Under the pieces are notes generated by a model. It did no database searches. It saw only the letters and a program-made list of their open reading frames with translations, and was not told the origin of the DNA. This document shows positions 26,856 through 38,743 of a stretch of DNA of 64,000 bases, piece by piece. Position 1 is the stretch's first letter. Every line of letters begins with the position of its first letter. A program made the translations under genes and the position numbers. The DNA is from an uncultured Alphaproteobacteria bacterium. Its GTDB lineage: Bacteria; Pseudomonadota; Alphaproteobacteria; Micropepsales; Micropepsaceae. Location of the stretch: assembly GCA_903897605.1 (NCBI GenBank), contig CAIUCH010000013.1:1-64000 (forward strand). The letters run 5' to 3'.

Positions 26856-27872
26856 ATGACATATCAAACACTTGCGGGGGTTTTCGCGGCGCTGCTGCTT
26901 GCCGGATCGGCGTCATCCCCGGCCTGGGCGCAGGATATCCAGACCAATCCGGCCGCCTCGGAAAAAGGTTCGCTCAGCATCCTTTTCGAGAACGACATTT
27001 TCTACAATTCCGATCACGACTACACCAATGGCGTGGGACTGGCCTACACCACTGCGCCCGGCGGCACGCCGGACTGGATGGTGCGCACCGCCCGCGCCAT
27101 TCCCTTTTTCGCGCAGACCGGCGATGTGCGCGCCCGTTTCGAACTGGGCCAAAGCATGTTCACGCCGCACGATCTGTCGCTCGCCAATCCGCCCGCCACC
27201 GACCGCCCCTATGCCGGCTTTCTCTATGGCGCGCTGGGTTTGGTGGACGACACCGGCACCGGTCTCGACCAGTTGCAGGTGAGCCTGGGCATGGTCGGTC
27301 CCGCCAGTTTGGCGGAGGAAGCCCAGAAATTCATCCACTCGACCTTCAACGACCGCAAGCCGCTGGGCTGGTCGACGCAACTGCGCGACGAGCCCGGCCT
27401 GGTGATCGAATATAACCGCTCAATCAAGCTGATCGCGCCGCAATCCATTCTGGGCGCGGTGTTCGATGTCGAGCCGAATTACGGCGCCGCCATCGGCAAT
27501 GTCTATGACTATGCCGAAATCGGCACGATGGCGCGGCTGGGATTCAACCTGCCCAAGGATTACGGCCCGATGCGGATCGAGCCCAGCCTGCCCGGCTCGG
27601 ATTATTTCGAGCCCACCGCGGGCCTGGGCGCCTATCTCTTCCTGGGCGTGGACGGACGCGCCATCGCCCGCAATCTTTTCCTCGACGGCAACAGTTTTCA
27701 GCCCAGCCGCAGCGTCGACAAACTGAACCTGGTGGGCGATTTGGTGCTGGGCGCGGCGGTGACGTTCGATTCCGTCCGCCTCGCCTTTACCCACGACATC
27801 CGCACGCGGGAATACAAGACCCAACCCGCCGCCGACCAGTTCGGCGCGGTCGATCTGACATTTCGCTTCTAG
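26856..27872 (+). CDS. LpxR-like outer-membrane protein (DUF2219)
   Basis: A 338-aa protein with a Sec signal (cleavage near AWAQ, residue 26). ENDIFYNSDHDYTNG is the hallmark of the LpxR lipid A 3'-O-deacylase family (Asp and Asn at the active site), followed by alternating aromatic beta-strand sequence and a terminal Phe (DLTFRF) as in outer-membrane barrels. LpxR removes the 3' acyloxyacyl group of lipid A; this activity is inferred from family only. Divergent from the cold-shock fusion. Confidence 0.8.
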   Translation: MTYQTLAGVFAALLLAGSASSPAWAQDIQTNPAASEKGSLSILFENDIFYNSDHDYTNGVGLAYTTAPGGTPDWMVRTARAIPFFAQTGDVRARFELGQSMFTPHDLSLANPPATDRPYAGFLYGALGLVDDTGTGLDQLQVSLGMVGPASLAEEAQKFIHSTFNDRKPLGWSTQLRDEPGLVIEYNRSIKLIAPQSILGAVFDVEPNYGAAIGNVYDYAEIGTMARLGFNLPKDYGPMRIEPSLPGSDYFEPTAGLGAYLFLGVDGRAIARNLFLDGNSFQPSRSVDKLNLVGDLVLGAAVTFDSVRLAFTHDIRTREYKTQPAADQFGAVDLTFRF

Positions 27873-27950
27873 AGCGGCCCACCCCTTGGCATTGCTGGGC
27901 CTGCGCCGTACCGTCCCAGGCAAACAAGCACAGATAATATGGGGGCGGGC

Positions 27951-29204
27951 ATGATCACGCGAACAACCAGGCGTCTTGCGATTGCGGCGATGGGGCTTTG
28001 CCTGGCCACCACGGCCTGGGCGGCGGGACCGAATTTCACCGCCTTCCACACCACCTTTGACCAGACCCTGACAAAGCACGGAATCGTCGGCGGCGCGTTT
28101 GCCTTCGAACACACCGGCGACAAGCCCACCGAATTCTATTTCGGCGAGGCGCGGGGCGCGCTGCACCAGAAGACCGATGCCGACACCGCCTATAACTGGG
28201 CCTCGATCACCAAGACCTTCACCGCCGTCGCCATTCTGCAATTGCGCGACCGGGGGCTGCTGTCGTTGGACGATCCCGCCGTGAAATACATTCCCGAACT
28301 GCGTCAGGTGCACGACAAGTTCGGCCCCATCGACGCCATCACCATCCGCCAGCTTCTGTCGCACAGCGCGGGCTTCCGCAATCCGACCTGGCCCTGGGAT
28401 TGCGACAGCGCCCCCGATTGCGCCTGGGTGCCGTTCGAGCCCACCCGCTGGGCCCAGGTCGAAGCGATGCTGGCCTTCACCAATATCGGCTTCAAGCCCG
28501 GCTCGCGCTGGAGCTATTCCAATGTCGGCTATGTCTTTCTCGGCCAGATCATCGAGCGGCTGACCGGCGACGATTACGAAGTCTATATCACCAAGAACAT
28601 CCTGATGCCGTTGGAGATGCGCCAAAGCTATTTCGACAAGGCGCCCTATTTCCTGCAATCGCATGTCGCCGATTCGTATGTCCGCGCCGGCAGCACCTTG
28701 TCGGTTCAGCCTTATGATTTCGACAGCGGCATCACCGTCTCCAACAGCGGTCTGAAGGCGCCGGTCGGCGATCTGCGCAAATATCTGCGCTTCCTGATCG
28801 GCGACGCCAAGAATCCCACCTATGACATGGTGCTGAAGAGGAGTTCCCTGAACGAAGCCTGGACCGGCGTGGTGCCGACCGGTGACGCCAGTGCCCCGGC
28901 CACGGCGTATACCGGCGGTCCGGGCGGCACGGTGCCGATGATGGGATTGGGCTTCTTCATCCTCACCGTCGATGGACATAAGTATGTCTATCACGACGGC
29001 GATCAGGGCGGCTTCACGGCGGAGCTGATGGTCGATCCCGAACGCCACAGCGGCGACATTGTGATGTCCAACACCACAGACACGGGAGCCCCGCCGGCAG
29101 ACACCACCCACGCGACGTCGAACACCGAGCCCGACGCAAAGACGGATCTGCGAATGCAGCTCAGGGATGTGTTGGTGCGGGATGTGTATCCGGGGGTGAA
29201 GTAG
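27951..29204 (+). CDS. Exported serine hydrolase, class C beta-lactamase fold
   Basis: A 417-aa protein with a Sec signal (cleavage near AWAA). SxxK is SITK in YNWASITKTF; a YxN-type motif is YSNVGY; and the last motif region includes YHDGDQGG. Like 14482-15663 this could be an esterase or D,D-peptidase. An upstream ATG at 27939 is in frame. It is the last high-GC gene before the retron island. Confidence 0.8.
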   Translation: MITRTTRRLAIAAMGLCLATTAWAAGPNFTAFHTTFDQTLTKHGIVGGAFAFEHTGDKPTEFYFGEARGALHQKTDADTAYNWASITKTFTAVAILQLRDRGLLSLDDPAVKYIPELRQVHDKFGPIDAITIRQLLSHSAGFRNPTWPWDCDSAPDCAWVPFEPTRWAQVEAMLAFTNIGFKPGSRWSYSNVGYVFLGQIIERLTGDDYEVYITKNILMPLEMRQSYFDKAPYFLQSHVADSYVRAGSTLSVQPYDFDSGITVSNSGLKAPVGDLRKYLRFLIGDAKNPTYDMVLKRSSLNEAWTGVVPTGDASAPATAYTGGPGGTVPMMGLGFFILTVDGHKYVYHDGDQGGFTAELMVDPERHSGDIVMSNTTDTGAPPADTTHATSNTEPDAKTDLRMQLRDVLVRDVYPGVK

Positions 29205-29246
29205 GTCTGTAGCGGGCGAAAACGTGGTTAATATGAGCATAACTTG

Positions 29247-29263
29247 GTTCGCTATTAGCGAAC
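29247..29263. terminator. Stem-loop before the retron promoter
   Basis: GTTCGCT and AGCGAAC form a perfect 7-bp stem with loop ATT. It is 43 bp after the serine hydrolase stop and directly before the -35 box. Probably ends the upstream transcript, although no T run follows. Confidence 0.35.
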
Positions 29264-29267
29264 TTAG

Positions 29268-29296
29268 TTGACAACTGCGAAGAAGCCATCTATATT
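29268..29296 (+). promoter_or_regulatory. Sigma70-type promoter of the retron
   Basis: TTGACA (29268-29273), exactly 17 bp, then TATATT (29291-29296). This is a near-consensus promoter, unusually strong for this GC-rich window, and predicts transcription start near 29302-29304 at the head of the structured non-coding segment. Confidence 0.75.
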
Positions 29297-29302
29297 GGCG
29301 AT

Positions 29303-29545
29303 ACGCTTGGTTGGACGTCATGCCTCTCTACCGGTCAGAGTGATCTGTCCTTGGAGTTCGAAAGAACTCTCCATTTCTTGGGGTCTCCTGCTCGCATCAA
29401 CCTATCGTGCGCGCGAATGCCCGCTGGAATAAGCGAGTATCGAAAGGCTCGATACTCGCTGGGACCTTAGAAGTCCTTCCGTTCGAGATGTCCTTTCTCG
29501 AAGGCACCGCACTAATCGTAACCCGAATTCTTCGGAACGATTGTG
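29303..29545 (+). ncRNA. Candidate retron msr-msd non-coding RNA
   Basis: Between the promoter and the first protein lies about 240 bp with no gene but strong hairpins. (1) 29354-29369: GAGTTC/GAACTC stem capped by a GAAA tetraloop. (2) 29432-29460: a perfect 12-bp stem AGCGAGTATCGA/TCGATACTCGCT with five-base loop AAGGC, the best candidate for the msd hairpin copied into DNA. (3) 29482-29502: TTCGAGA/TCTCGAA with 7-base loop. (4) 29514-29542: AATCGT/ACGATT enclosing CGAA/TTCG, just before the small ORF. In retrons a structured RNA upstream of the reverse transcriptase is both template and primer. I could not place the a1/a2 end repeats or the branching G, so the exact ends are estimated. Confidence 0.6.
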
Positions 29546-29566
29546 TCGGTGAGAAAGGAAATGGTC

Positions 29567-29743
29567 ATGTCAGAAACGACTGATCCGCCAAGCGACGAAC
29601 GGAAGAGTGTCGAGTTCCGAGAACGAATGCGCGGTCTAGGCCGTAAATTTGTTACTCGGAAAACGCTGATCATTGCTTTCCAAATTGCCGATTGGGCAGT
29701 TCGGATCGCGGAACTTGTGATGCGGTTGATCGACGGCTTCTAA
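29567..29743 (+). CDS. Small retron-associated protein with hydrophobic/amphipathic tail
   Basis: A 58-aa protein from the ATG at 29567 (AAGGAA six bases upstream; other in-frame starts at 29543 GTG and 29561 ATG). The first half is polar and charged (SETTDPPSDERKS, EFRERMRG). The second half (residues about 32-58) is hydrophobic with spaced charges: TLIIAFQIADWAV then RIAELVMRLIDGF, forming one or two amphipathic or membrane-touching helices. No family recognised. Retron accessory proteins are often toxic effectors, and a tiny membrane-active protein would fit, but that is inference. It lies between the non-coding RNA and the HTH gene. Confidence 0.6.
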   Translation: MSETTDPPSDERKSVEFRERMRGLGRKFVTRKTLIIAFQIADWAVRIAELVMRLIDGF

Positions 29744-29771
29744 GCGAATTCCCAATCGAACTGAGGTGTTC

Positions 29772-30086
29772 ATGTATTATCGTGCACTAAAACTAATTAG
29801 ACAGTACCACAGGCTTTCGCAGGTTCAGCTTGCGGAAGCTCTCGGGCTTTCTAAATCCTTCATCTCTGAGATGGAGAAGAAGGATGGGAAAAGGCCCAGC
29901 GTAGAAGTTTTGGAGAGATATGCAGCTTTCTTCAAAATTCCGCTTTCTTCTTTGCTTCTTTTTGCAGAGAGCACCAACGATAAAAAAACCAGAGAGCGAG
30001 TTCGTACTTATGCGACCGATAAAATATTGAGAATGTTGGAGTGGCTTGAAGAGACTACTCGTTCTGAATCGTCAGGATCAGTGTAA
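29772..30086 (+). CDS. XRE-family HTH protein, retron accessory
   Basis: A 104-aa protein from the ATG at 29772, with TGAGG upstream (GTG at 29766 is an alternative). Residues about 6-62 are a Cro/C1-type HTH: LIRQYHRLSQVQLAEALGLSKSFISEMEKK, where the second helix is LSKSFISEME, then PSVEVLERYAAFFKIPLSSLL. A short charged helical C-terminus follows. The stop overlaps the reverse transcriptase ATG (TAATG), so they are translationally coupled. An HTH partner is a recognised accessory type for one group of retrons (type VI, from memory). It could repress the locus or act as the effector. Confidence 0.8.
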   Translation: MYYRALKLIRQYHRLSQVQLAEALGLSKSFISEMEKKDGKRPSVEVLERYAAFFKIPLSSLLLFAESTNDKKTRERVRTYATDKILRMLEWLEETTRSESSGSV

Positions 30087-35279: not shown

Positions 35280-36737
35280 ATGCCCCGTCTCATCACCCGC
35301 CGTCTTCTTCTGTCCAGCAGCGCCCTGGTCGCGGCGGGTCTGGCATTGTCGCCGCGTGACGGATTCGCCGCCGCCGCCAAGCCCAACATCGTCTTCATCC
35401 TGGCCGATGATATGGGTTTCGCCGATGTCGGCTGTTATGGGCGGCCCGATGTGAAGACCCCCAATATCGACCGCCTGGCGGCCCAGGGCACGCGTTTCCT
35501 GCAGGCCTATGCAAATTCCGCCGTCTGTTCGGCCTCGCGCACCGCGCTGATGACCGGGCGCTATCAATACCGGCTGCGGGTGGGCCTGGAAGAACCCATC
35601 AGCACCTTCTCGACATTCAGTGTCGGATTGCCGCCCGATCACCCGACCTTGCCGTCGCTGCTGAAAAAAGCCGGCTACAACACCGCGCTCGTCGGTAAAT
35701 GGCATCTGGGCTTCCTGCCCGATTTCGGTCCGCTGAAAAGCGGCTATGACCATTTCTATGGTTATCGCAGCGGCGGGGTGGATTATTTTTCGCACAAGGC
35801 GAGCAATCACAAGCTCGATCTGTGGGACGGCGATGTCACGGTCGATCAGCATGGCTATCTGACCGATCTGTTGGGCGTCCGATCGGTCGAACTGATCGAC
35901 GGTTTCGCCAAGGAGGGCAAACCCTTCCTTCTCAGCCTGCATTTCAGCGCCCCGCATTGGCCGTGGGAAGCGCCAGGCGATGAATCCGAAGCGCAGCGCC
36001 TGGAAAGCCGCACCTTGACGTCGTCCGATTCCGGCACCCAGAAAACCTATGTCCGCATGATCGAAGCGATGGACATCCAGATCGGTAAGGTGATGGGCGC
36101 GCTGCAGACCAACGGCATCGCCCGGGACACCATCGTGATCTTCACGAGCGACAATGGCGGCGAACGGTTTGCCGACACTTGGCCCTTCACCGGCCGCAAG
36201 ACCGAATTGCTGGAAGGGGGACTGCGCATTCCCGCCATCATGCGCTGGCCCGGCCATGTGCCCGCCGGAAAAACCAGCGATCAAGTCGCCATCCATATGG
36301 ATTGGCTGCCGACACTTCTGGCCGCGGCGGGCGCGGTGCCCGACCCCGCCTATCCCAGCGACGGAATCGATCTTTCGCCCATGCTGCTGCACGGCGCGCC
36401 GCCCCAACCCCGGAAATTGTTCTGGCGCTTCAAGGCCAATGCGCAACGCGCCGCCCGTGACGGCGACTACAAGATTCTCAAGATCAACGAGAACAGTTTC
36501 CTGTTCGATGTCGTGGCCGACCCGATGGAACGCGCCAATCTCAAGGACCGGCATAAAGAGATTTACGACCGGATGGCGGCGGAATGGAATGAATGGAACG
36601 CCACCATGCTGACCGAGCTGCGCGAAAGTTCGACCGGCAGTTTCGGGGCCGCCACCATGGCCGACCATATCGGCGCCAAAAGCGCCAGCGGCGAAGTCGA
36701 TTCCGCCGATGGCTGGCCGACCGCGCCGGTGCCCTGA
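35280..36737 (+). CDS. Tat-exported sulfatase
   Basis: A 485-aa sulfatase. The N-terminus TRRLLLSSSALVAAG is Tat-like. IVFILADDMGFADVG supplies the two metal Asp residues (43-44). The formylglycine site is CSASR at 83-87 followed by TALMTGR: the Cys is present but the usual Pro is Ala (CxAxR), which some sulfatases tolerate. The C-terminal half has FTSDNGGER and later metal ligands. Sulfate esters of polysaccharide or aromatic compounds are likely substrates; none can be named. GAGGAAT precedes the ATG. Confidence 0.85.
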   Translation: MPRLITRRLLLSSSALVAAGLALSPRDGFAAAAKPNIVFILADDMGFADVGCYGRPDVKTPNIDRLAAQGTRFLQAYANSAVCSASRTALMTGRYQYRLRVGLEEPISTFSTFSVGLPPDHPTLPSLLKKAGYNTALVGKWHLGFLPDFGPLKSGYDHFYGYRSGGVDYFSHKASNHKLDLWDGDVTVDQHGYLTDLLGVRSVELIDGFAKEGKPFLLSLHFSAPHWPWEAPGDESEAQRLESRTLTSSDSGTQKTYVRMIEAMDIQIGKVMGALQTNGIARDTIVIFTSDNGGERFADTWPFTGRKTELLEGGLRIPAIMRWPGHVPAGKTSDQVAIHMDWLPTLLAAAGAVPDPAYPSDGIDLSPMLLHGAPPQPRKLFWRFKANAQRAARDGDYKILKINENSFLFDVVADPMERANLKDRHKEIYDRMAAEWNEWNATMLTELRESSTGSFGAATMADHIGAKSASGEVDSADGWPTAPVP

Positions 36738-36814
36738 AGCGCATTCTTTGCGGCCGGTTGCCGCCGCCGCCGCCCGGGCTTAACAATGGCGCAAACAACA
36801 ATCGGGGGACCGCC

Positions 36815-37756
36815 ATGAAACGCCGGGATTTTCTCACCACCGCCATTGCCACCGCCGCCGCAGCCGCCGCCGCCAACATTCCTGCTGCCGCGCAGGCGGC
36901 CCGCAAAGGCTTCGACTTCATCCAGGTCGACGTCTTTACCCAGACGCCGCTGGAAGGAAATCCGCTGGCGGTCTTTCCCCATGCCCAGGGGATGAGCGAT
37001 CAGCAGATGCAGGACATCGCGCGCGAGCTCAATCATTCCGAGACCACTTTCATCCTGCCCGCCACCGCCGGCGGCGACGCCAAGGTGCGCATCTTCGGGC
37101 AGAATGCCGAACTTCCTTTTGCCGGCCATCCCACCCTTGGCACCGCCTTCGTGATGGCGATGACGCGGCCCGGCAAGACCGCGATGGTGCTGGAAGAAAA
37201 AGTCGGGCCGATTCCCGTCTCGCTCGAACGCCGCGCCGACGGCGTGTTCGTCGAGATGACGCAGAACGAACCGGTATTCGGCGCCAAGGCCGAGCCCAAG
37301 ATGGTGGCCGACATGATGGGCTTCGGCGTCGACGAGATCGACAGCCGCTATGCGCCGCAGATGGTCTCGACCGGATCGAACTTCCTGATCGTGCCGCTGA
37401 AAAGCGTTGCGACCCTGGCCAAACTTACCTTGGGCCACCAATTGCCGCCGGAACAGCGCGCCGTCTTCGGCAACGGCGCTTATTATGTCGTGACCGGCGA
37501 AGATCAAGTCGAAAGCCGCATGATGGGCGCCACCAGCGAAGACCCCGCCACCGGCAGCGCGGTCGGATGCGCCACTGCCTTTTTGATCCAGAACGGCATC
37601 AAGAAACCCGACGAGCGCATCGCCATTCGCCAGGGCCGCTTCGTCAACCGGCCATCCATTCTTTACGTTCGCGCCGGCCTGGCCAACGGCAAGGCGACCA
37701 AAGTGCGCGTCGGCGGCTATGTGGTCGAAGCGATGCGGGGCAAATTCACGGTTTGA
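36815..37756 (+). CDS. Tat-exported PhzF-family protein, copy 1
   Basis: A 313-aa protein of the PhzF isomerase family (diaminopimelate-epimerase-like fold, two repeats). VDVFTQTPLEGNPLAVF opens the fold, NHSETTFILP carries the catalytic Glu, and GHPTLGTAFV and EDPATGSAVGC are the conserved loops. Unusually it begins MKRRDFLTTAIATAAAA, a Tat signal, while characterised PhzF is cytosolic. The second copy 55 bp downstream is closely similar. Role unknown: the family does isomerisation of small carboxylic substrates. Confidence 0.8.
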   Translation: MKRRDFLTTAIATAAAAAAANIPAAAQAARKGFDFIQVDVFTQTPLEGNPLAVFPHAQGMSDQQMQDIARELNHSETTFILPATAGGDAKVRIFGQNAELPFAGHPTLGTAFVMAMTRPGKTAMVLEEKVGPIPVSLERRADGVFVEMTQNEPVFGAKAEPKMVADMMGFGVDEIDSRYAPQMVSTGSNFLIVPLKSVATLAKLTLGHQLPPEQRAVFGNGAYYVVTGEDQVESRMMGATSEDPATGSAVGCATAFLIQNGIKKPDERIAIRQGRFVNRPSILYVRAGLANGKATKVRVGGYVVEAMRGKFTV

Positions 37757-37810: not shown

Positions 37811-38743
37811 ATGAAACGCCGGGACTTTCTTGCCACCGCCATCGCCGGCGCCGCCGCCGCAAGCCTTCCCGCCGCCGCCAAACCGGCGCGAAAAACGTTC
37901 GACTTCGTCCAGGTCGACGTCTTCACCCAGACACCGCTGGGGGGAAATCCGCTGGCGGCCTTTCCCGATGCCCGAGGGATGAGCGATGCGCAGATGCAGA
38001 ACATCACCCGCGAGCTCAATCATTCCGAGACCACATTCATCCTGCCCGCCACCGCCGGCGGCGACGCCAAGGTGCGCATTTTCGGCGGTGAAGGCGAGAT
38101 TCCCTTTTCCGGGCATCCGACGCTTGGCACCGCCTTCGTGATGGCGCTGACCCGGCCAGGCAAGACGGCGATGGTGCTGGAAGAAGGTGTTGGGCCGATC
38201 GCCGTCACCTTGGAGCGCCGCGCCGATGGGCTGTTCGCGGAGATGACACAGACCGAGCCGGTGTTCGGCCCCAAGGCCGATCCCAAAATGGTCGCCGACG
38301 CGTTGGGCTTTTCTGTCGATGAGATCGACAGCCGCTATCCGGTGCAATCAGTTTCGACCGGCGCGGTCCGGCTGATCATCCCGCTGAAAAGCGCTTCAAC
38401 CCTGGCCAAGCTCACCTTGGGCCATCAATTGCCGCCAGACCAGCGCGCCATTTTCAGCAACAGCGATTACTTTGTCGTGACCGGCGAGGACCAGATCGAA
38501 GCCCGCTTCCTGGGCTTCAGCAGCGAAGACCCCGCCACTGGCAGCGCGGGCGGTTGCGCCGCCGCCTATCTAATCCAGTATGGCATCCGCAAACCCGACG
38601 AACGCATCGCGATCCATCAAGGCCGCTTCGTCAACCGGCCCAGCATCGTTTACGTCCGCACCAGCGGCGCCACCGGCAAACCGACCAATGTGCGCGTCGG
38701 CGGCTATGTGGTGGAAGCAATGCGGGGCAAATTCACGGTCTGA
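37811..38743 (+). CDS. Tat-exported PhzF-family protein, copy 2
   Basis: A 310-aa protein like copy 1 in all blocks (VDVFTQTPLGGNPLA, NHSETTFILP, GHPTLGTAFV, EDPATGSAGGC) and with the same Tat start MKRRDFLATA. It arises from tandem duplication. The spacer between copies keeps a similar ACCGCCATG start context. Differences cluster in mid-protein loops, suggesting altered substrate or early divergence. Confidence 0.8.
   Translation: MKRRDFLATAIAGAAAASLPAAAKPARKTFDFVQVDVFTQTPLGGNPLAAFPDARGMSDAQMQNITRELNHSETTFILPATAGGDAKVRIFGGEGEIPFSGHPTLGTAFVMALTRPGKTAMVLEEGVGPIAVTLERRADGLFAEMTQTEPVFGPKADPKMVADALGFSVDEIDSRYPVQSVSTGAVRLIIPLKSASTLAKLTLGHQLPPDQRAIFSNSDYFVVTGEDQIEARFLGFSSEDPATGSAGGCAAAYLIQYGIRKPDERIAIHQGRFVNRPSIVYVRTSGATGKPTNVRVGGYVVEAMRGKFTV

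Follow-up and report, generated by a model that had tools for sequence, protein, structure and literature searches.

The 64-kb stretch of alphaproteobacterial DNA analysed here, referred to as the window, carries a type VI retron operon with the order operator, promoter, structured leader, small ORF, Xre-type HTH gene and reverse transcriptase (RT) gene (Table 1). Retrons are bacterial reverse-transcriptase systems thought to fight viruses, and their type VI scheme is reportedly that of Mestre et al. 2020. The runner-up PADLOC profile for the RT, RT_III-A, scored 119.2 bits against 248.5 for RT_VI, and comparison with solved structures returned retron RTs as all of the top sequence matches, in the order Ec86, Kva2 and Ec67. 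The core motifs of retron RTs are YVDD, an NAxxH-like and a VTG-like motif; the translated RT carries YVDD, NARSH and ITG, with I in place of V in the last. The end of the HTH ORF coincides with the start of the RT gene.

The G+C content, measured in 400-base windows, was 46-54% within 29.1-31.3 kb as opposed to 58-67% in the surroundings, as would be expected of an acquired element. When an empty site was sought in 68 other genomes of the genus, none of them contained the downstream neighbour gene (E 1e-30). No Rfam family reached its gathering score in the window; the top match within 29240-29800 was to an unrelated family whose gathering score is 40, and it reached 19.9 bits (E 0.44).

Table 1. 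Features of the retron locus, in order of position in the window
Feature	Position	Strand	Evidence
Palindromic operator TTCGCTATTAGCGAA, proposed HTH binding site	29248..29262	+	sole exact copy in the 64-kb window
Sigma-70-like promoter TTGACA-N17-TATATT	29268..29296	+	11/12 consensus positions
x (TGCCT), able to pair with 4 letters of y1 and 5 of y2	29321..29325	+	three-part motif tests
Hairpin P1	29333..29350	+	RNAalifold consensus with two-sided changes; tandem P1-P2 in other loci (script)
Hairpin P2 (GAAA loop)	29353..29370	+	RNAalifold consensus; tandem P1-P2 script
P2b, long sequence-variable hairpin, candidate msd	29371..29431	+	fold z
P3, 12-bp hairpin, alternative msd candidate	29432..29460	+	RNAalifold consensus
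y1, AGGC in P3 loop	29445..29448	+	loop-word recurrence; three-part motif tests
Helix a, 5' arm CTTAGAAGTC	29466..29475	+	RNAalifold; covariation; swap test
Helix b, 5' arm CTTCCGTTCG	29476..29485	+	RNAalifold; covariation; swap test
Helix c, 5' arm, anti-Shine-Dalgarno CCTTTCTC	29492..29499	+	single-sequence fold; swap test in other groups
y2, AGGCA inside Shine-Dalgarno hairpin	29502..29506	+	three-part motif tests
Helix c, 3' arm with Shine-Dalgarno GAGAAAGG	29551..29558	+	single-sequence fold; swap test in other groups
Small ORF for a basic 58-aa peptide (hydrophobic in its C-terminal half), candidate effector	29567..29743	+	
Helix b, 3' arm in early codons CGAACGGAAG	29596..29605	+	RNAalifold; covariation; swap test
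Helix a, 3' arm across stop codon GGCTTCTAAG	29735..29744	+	RNAalifold; covariation
Xre-type HTH protein (HTH_VI)	29772..30086	+	PADLOC HTH_VI 99.6 bits, E 2e-29; Pfam HTH_3
Type VI retron reverse transcriptase, 315 aa	30086..31033	+	PADLOC RT_VI 248.5 bits, E 2e-74; Pfam RVT_1

Distribution of related loci

Genomes, plasmids, phages and E. coli were searched for RT matches, and 42 loci with an HTH gene near the RT were assembled, including the window itself (L001); 41 were found by tblastn with the HTH protein of the window and one (L068) by annotation. Locus L023, which is the window, was dropped together with L047 and L049, which hold the same DNA as L002 and L004, and the near-identical L043 and L061 were both retained. 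For counting, the loci were placed in groups that vary slightly between tests, namely group A (11 around the window), group B (six P2-phage loci) and a number of smaller ones.

The closest relatives include Ancylobacter, Hyphomicrobium and Afipia, with RT identities of 47-63% as given by the search, and the most distant include Enterococcus and Staphylococcus plasmids. Overall the set includes Alpha-, Beta- and Gammaproteobacteria, a Verrucomicrobia MAG, and Acinetobacter, Enterococcus and Staphylococcus plasmids, as well as phages of the P2- and Mu-like kinds. Of 5,426 complete E. coli genomes, 99 carried the P2-prophage form, whose loci include L042 and L056-L059, and one scan of viral contigs returned no relative. 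The RT gene is interrupted in three loci, with matches in two frames in L051 (1142-2061) and L021 and an internal stop in L053; in all three the leader and the small ORF seem undamaged. Three loci on Aeromonas and Staphylococcus plasmids (L043, L061 and L068) are situated near genes annotated as type I toxins (Hok/Gef or Fst), and on a Microvirga plasmid (L046:3441-4400) a TIR-domain gene is located directly 3' of the RT gene.

Operator and promoter

A palindrome, TTCGCTnnnAGCGAA, was found with two mismatches or fewer in 31 of the 42 loci (15 exact, 11 with one mismatch and 5 with two), 264-349 nt upstream of the start of the small ORF. The shuffles used in this operator test preserved single-base composition alone. 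By eye, it lies directly upstream of a -35-like box in many loci. Three mismatches were counted in L002, L021 and L050 and four to six in a further eight loci, L009, L067 and the six of group B; in these eight the TTCGCTnnnAGCGAA operator was not found. Within the 64 kb window, seven sites matched the operator with up to two mismatches, one of them exactly, against 3.9 expected. The palindrome is proposed to be bound by the HTH protein, which as a putative autoregulator would limit transcription from the adjoining -35 box.

The near-consensus promoter that had been predicted for the window was confirmed in position and sequence. Between 27900 and 31200, two sigma-70-like matches were found against a shuffle mean of 1.9; as this number equals that of the shuffles, it is the quality and position of the match that speak for the promoter. 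Transcription would then start near 29303. A scan for consensus promoters, the sole means by which an antisense RNA opposite the leader was sought, revealed none, its one minus-strand match (30760-30731) lying outside the leader.

Hairpins of the 5' domain

The original prediction, made for positions 29268-29545, was of an msr-msd RNA in a gene-free, hairpin-rich segment directly following the promoter. The perfect 12-bp stem with its AAGGC loop (P3) is exactly as had been described, the GAAA-loop hairpin (P2) was found as well, and the richness in hairpins was borne out by folding: the RNA 29298-29550 has a predicted energy of -95.8 kcal/mol, as opposed to -76.6 +/- 5.0 for shuffled versions (z -3.8), and none of 200 shuffles was equally stable. 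The segment is gene-free on the plus strand until the small ORF's reading frame opens (GTG 29543), but not on the minus strand, from which a 633-aa ORF enters as far as 29321. This ORF (27420-29321) is antisense to a beta-lactamase-family gene (27939-29204) and is probably a chance ORF driven by G+C.

Tandem P1-P2 hairpins were called in other loci by a script that was run without a control and returns the best hairpin pair from any sequence, and an alignment of P1-P2 over 18 loci was of too poor a quality for a covariance model. Between P2 and P3, most loci contain a hairpin of variable sequence, P2b, the folding of which was tested on the same 35 loci as were used in the first test of the three-part motif described below. 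Its fold z was -1.1 in the window and averaged -1.7 over the 35 loci, 25 of which were below -1. By analogy with known retrons, P2b appears to be at least as good an msd candidate as P3, the hairpin to which the original prediction had assigned this role. For a canonical a1/a2 repeat flanking the 5' domain, the signal was weak (KS p 0.04, 36 of 42 loci). In group B, L045, L060 and L062, a segment ahead of x (TGAGAT, GAGAG) complements the b1-helix c linker (ATCTCA, CTCTC), and a pseudoknot is possible there.

Long-range pairing into the small ORF

Pairing conserved among homologues with the same genes, a lack of which had been named in advance as grounds for giving up the RNA, was present both in RNAalifold consensus structures and in swap tests. 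Together with the RT_VI and HTH_VI profiles, it makes the leader very likely to be retron RNA, as had been guessed, but with other boundaries: conserved pairing continues through the small ORF to about 29745, which leaves the predicted segment about 200 nt short at its 29545 end. End repeats had been missed in that segment because the pairing extends past 29545 to the 3' arm of helix a. The flagged segment is thus very likely the front half of a structured type VI retron RNA, and this RNA is not purely non-coding, its outermost conserved helix spanning the small ORF.

Unconstrained RNAalifold on the 11 group A sequences, the window included, recovered P1, P2, P3 and helices a and b, with two-sided changes in 38 of 82 pairs. 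Taking helices a and b alone, 95.0% of the cells in group A are paired, and two-sided changes occur in 7 of 20 pairs (15 cells). On four of five measures, the covariation score included, 0 of 500 shuffles scored as high; for the number of pair types, 429 of 500 did. Sliding the partner by 1-3 columns reduced pairing to 31-47%, in a comparison that favours the real over the slid versions since the structure was read off the window. Helix c is absent from the group A consensus, in which local pairing of columns 205-208 with 220-223 uses part of y2 instead; the evidence for helix c comes from folds of individual sequences and from loci outside group A. When leaders were folded singly and unaligned (n=26), the same design was seen in many among the folds listed, with L051 deviating in having no helix a.

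Outside group A, pairing was assessed by exchanging partners between groups (31 loci, 23 groups), in windows that had been narrowed with earlier all-locus scores in view and hence with no blind hold-out. The real partners ranked in the best tenth in 10 of 23 groups for helix a (KS p 0.0014), 15 of 23 for helix b (KS p 4e-8) and 14 of 23 for helix c (KS p 1e-8). RNAduplex on wide windows of all 42 loci had given a mean z of -0.73 for helix a, with 6/42 loci under 5%, and of -0.32 for helix b, with 1/42, and so had supported neither helix. RNAduplex was replaced by contiguous-helix scoring because long interrupted duplexes dominate its output; with the latter, 15/42 loci and 7/23 groups were under 5% for helix a (KS p 1e-4), and 10/42 loci and 7/23 groups for helix b (KS p 1e-5). 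Across lineages the arms differ in sequence yet remain complementary, as in helix a of L006 (AUGGUGUCGGGU/ACCCGACACCAU) and L067 (UUAAUCAGGU/GCCUGAUUAA), helix b of L040 (UUUCGGCUGCUUU/AAAGCGGCCGAAG) and L060 (CUGCCAAAAACU/GGUUUUUGGCAG) and helix c of L007 (CCUCCUUUC/GAAAGGAGG).

Helix a is the least general of the three. In the P2-phage group it did not outrank swapped partners (ranks 0.31-0.44), and it was absent or poor in L007, L009, L021, L043/L061, L045, L046, L060, L063 and L066; for helix b the same was true of L007, L008, L009, L043/L061, L063 and L067. In L048, L051 and L053 arm a2 is retained with the stop codon upstream of it, so that in these loci it no longer codes and is kept as RNA.

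The position of helix a raises the question of whether it could itself be the a1/a2 repeat, in which case the RT would copy the RNA of the small ORF and destroy or mask the message. Helix a does enclose the entire ORF and, of the strong conserved helices in group A, lies outermost. Its 5' arm moreover carries UUAG in most of that group, and UUAG- or UAG-like letters, which resemble the branch-G context of retrons, follow P3 in a number of loci when inspected by eye. However, UUAG is not universal (UUAA in L041 and L045, UUAC in L046), the conserved G lies within the helix and not after it, and the ORF is under codon-position constraint, as described in the next section. We regard copying of the ORF as very unlikely.

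The small ORF

A script identified a candidate small ORF in all 42 loci, coding for 47-67 aa and ending 21-86 nt ahead of the HTH start. It is preceded by a Shine-Dalgarno sequence in 41 of them, as compared with 9% of 840 dinucleotide-shuffled leaders; the exception, L009, was taken with an upstream start without a Shine-Dalgarno sequence, and its true start may be later. When a charge of at least +2 and a hydrophobic later part were also demanded, 35/42 loci qualified against 0.5% of shuffles. Using tblastn, homologues of the small ORF of the window were found in L002-L004, L050 and L051, and other loci hold similar ORFs. No match to it was found in Pfam, PADLOC or NCBIfam. At codon positions 1, 2 and 3, respectively 35, 28 and 47% of compared codons differ in group A, and 21, 18 and 28% in group B. 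That third positions diverge most suggests that the reading frame matters, with a modest excess at position 3.

The small basic peptide, with its hydrophobic C-terminal half, is proposed as the likely toxic effector. The gene itself is not new: the available portion of PMC8541194 describes short hypothetical genes upstream of HTH and RT in some phages and small auxiliary genes in type VI retrons. The present locus, whose RT and HTH protein are best matched by the type VI profiles (PADLOC RT_VI and HTH_VI), likewise carries a small auxiliary gene.

These data also bear on a more conventional arrangement, in which the 5' domain alone would be the msr-msd, with msDNA made from P2b or P3, and RT, msDNA and HTH protein would form a guard-and-effector complex; the small ORF would then be a minor auxiliary gene, and the pairing in the leader ordinary translational tuning. 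The kinship of the RT with solved retron RTs is what such an arrangement would predict. The order of hairpins in the leader, two small ones and then a long one of variable sequence, also resembles the layout of retrons. Against this, the flanking repeat around the 5' domain is weak whereas strong long-range helices enter the small ORF, and that ORF is present in 42 of 42 loci. On balance we consider the conventional arrangement unlikely.

A three-part complementary motif

The word in the P3 loop was found to recur ahead of the ORF of the same locus, with a mean of 5.5 shared letters compared with 4.3 (KS p 8e-6, 22 groups). For two loci, the window and L002, GAAAGG is the longest word common to the P3 loop and the pre-ORF region, and it is located on the Shine-Dalgarno sequence and not on y2; in the window it occupies 29442-29447 in the P3 loop region and 29553-29558 in the Shine-Dalgarno region. 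Beyond this repeat, a segment ahead of P1, x, is complementary to both copies. Over 35 loci in 18 groups, the mean rank was 0.185 for x with y1 (p 2e-5) and 0.23 for x with y2 (p 4e-6). The three-way word, defined as the longest common to the P3 loop, the Shine-Dalgarno hairpin and the complement of the 5' segment, averaged 4.51 letters in the same loci and groups, as opposed to 3.02 (sd 0.13) in swapped triples, with 0/3000 as high; it reached four letters in 29 of the 35 loci and five in 14. The 35-locus set omits L005, L006, L009, L027, L039, L052 and L067, in which, after the motifs had been viewed by eye, P1/P2 or P3 was judged to have been miscalled by the script. With all 42 loci included, the mean was 4.12 against 2.90 (0/2000), and 30/42 reached at least four letters, leaving 12/42 without a shared x/y word of four or more.

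Control windows (uncomplemented x, shifted x, y2 windows placed in the ORF or far upstream) gave 2.96-3.18 in six of seven cases; the seventh, at 4.29, overlaps the real window. Pairs of x and y include GCCATC/GATGGC (L046), CCUCGU/ACGAGG (L007), UCACGC/GCGUGA (L025), UCGCC/GGCGA (most P2-phage loci) and UGCCU/AGGCA (the window, y2). Some of the counted words differ from the motif as pictured, such as CAAA in L004 and AAGC in L064. Within group A, x and y hardly vary, so that support there comes from conservation and not from covariation.

A GG with C or A after it is common among the y words, and a protein binding both sites is thus an alternative cause of the repeat. On such a scheme, one and the same protein, the RT or the HTH protein, would recognise y at both places, P3 loop and Shine-Dalgarno hairpin, and would repress the small ORF through molecular mimicry, with no toggling of the RNA. 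The locus-by-locus recurrence of the P3 loop word ahead of the ORF, often with a GG(C/A) core, is what mimicry would produce, but it leaves unexplained the locus-specific complement x before P1: when x alone was swapped, 0/3000 permutations reached the real value. Mimicry is to our mind clearly unlikely. Pairing by x, which could engage y1 or y2 and hardly both at once, would have the form of a switch.

Proposed mechanism and comparison with known systems

The anatomy of the locus, comprising the operon type, the palindrome, the helices and the x/y complementarity, is well supported. Based on this anatomy, we propose that the type VI retron leader is both a retron RNA and a cage for a small effector gene, with release via the x.y1/x.y2 state, an interpretation whose chances we judge to be about even. 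The HTH protein, bound to TTCGCTnnnAGCGAA beside the -35 box, would keep transcription low. The 5' domain (x, P1, P2, P2b and P3) would be the msr/msd-like part, bound and copied by the RT, while helix c, by covering the Shine-Dalgarno sequence, helix b, over the early codons, and helix a, over the stop region, would silence the small ORF. By pairing with either the P3 loop (y1) or the site in the Shine-Dalgarno hairpin (y2), x would signal to the ribosome-binding site of the small ORF whether the 5' domain is free, bound by the RT or already copied into DNA. The probably toxic peptide would be released once phage infection disturbs the RT, the DNA that it makes, or the repressor.

A narrower version of this caged-effector model holds that type VI leaders are RNA switches that sense reverse transcription: y1, as long as it is intact, would occupy x, and copying or its failure would free x for y2 in the Shine-Dalgarno hairpin and thereby alter how the caged peptide toxin is translated. 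Taken furthest, this version has y2 pair with the P3 loop's own DNA copy, so that msDNA would act on the toxin message as an antisense DNA regulator. We consider such sensing unlikely.

In Ec86 (Eco1) and other solved retrons, an a1/a2 repeat closes a non-coding msr-msd. The RT described here is homologous to theirs over the polymerase core (E 3e-10) and likewise has a structured leader upstream of its gene; unlike theirs, the outer helix encloses an ORF. Type I toxins of the hok/Sok type are small hydrophobic peptides made from messages whose ends fold together, and a small hydrophobic peptide and a message folded back between its ends are likewise features of the present locus. It differs from hok/Sok in the presence of an RT and an HTH protein, and an antisense RNA was not found by the promoter scan. 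As far as the available part of PMC12039810 describes it, DRT2 resembles the proposed system in combining an RT, a toxic gene product and an adjacent structured RNA that contains pseudoknots; its gene is assembled by reverse transcription. Here, in contrast, the ORF is already genomic and has a Shine-Dalgarno sequence.

Type VI retrons have been named, yet no effector enzyme is recognisable in them, and what accompanies the RT is just an HTH protein and a small gene. We found no account of their mechanism in the searchable literature, nor, in the available portion of PMC8541194, any mention of a caged small ORF, helices a, b and c, the x/y motif or the operator, some of which Mestre et al. 2020 may contain. 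The conserved anatomy offers a testable answer, in which the effector would be the caged peptide and the lock the retron RNA; if this is true, reverse transcription would be tied to translation control via RNA pairing. The position of the RNA end is also a guide for the design of constructs, since one ending at 29545 or omitting the small ORF would be expected to break the system.

Elsewhere in the window, two adjacent plus-strand ORFs (36593-37756 and 37811-38743) are very similar to each other, both with MKRRDFL... starts, and apparently represent a tandem duplication.
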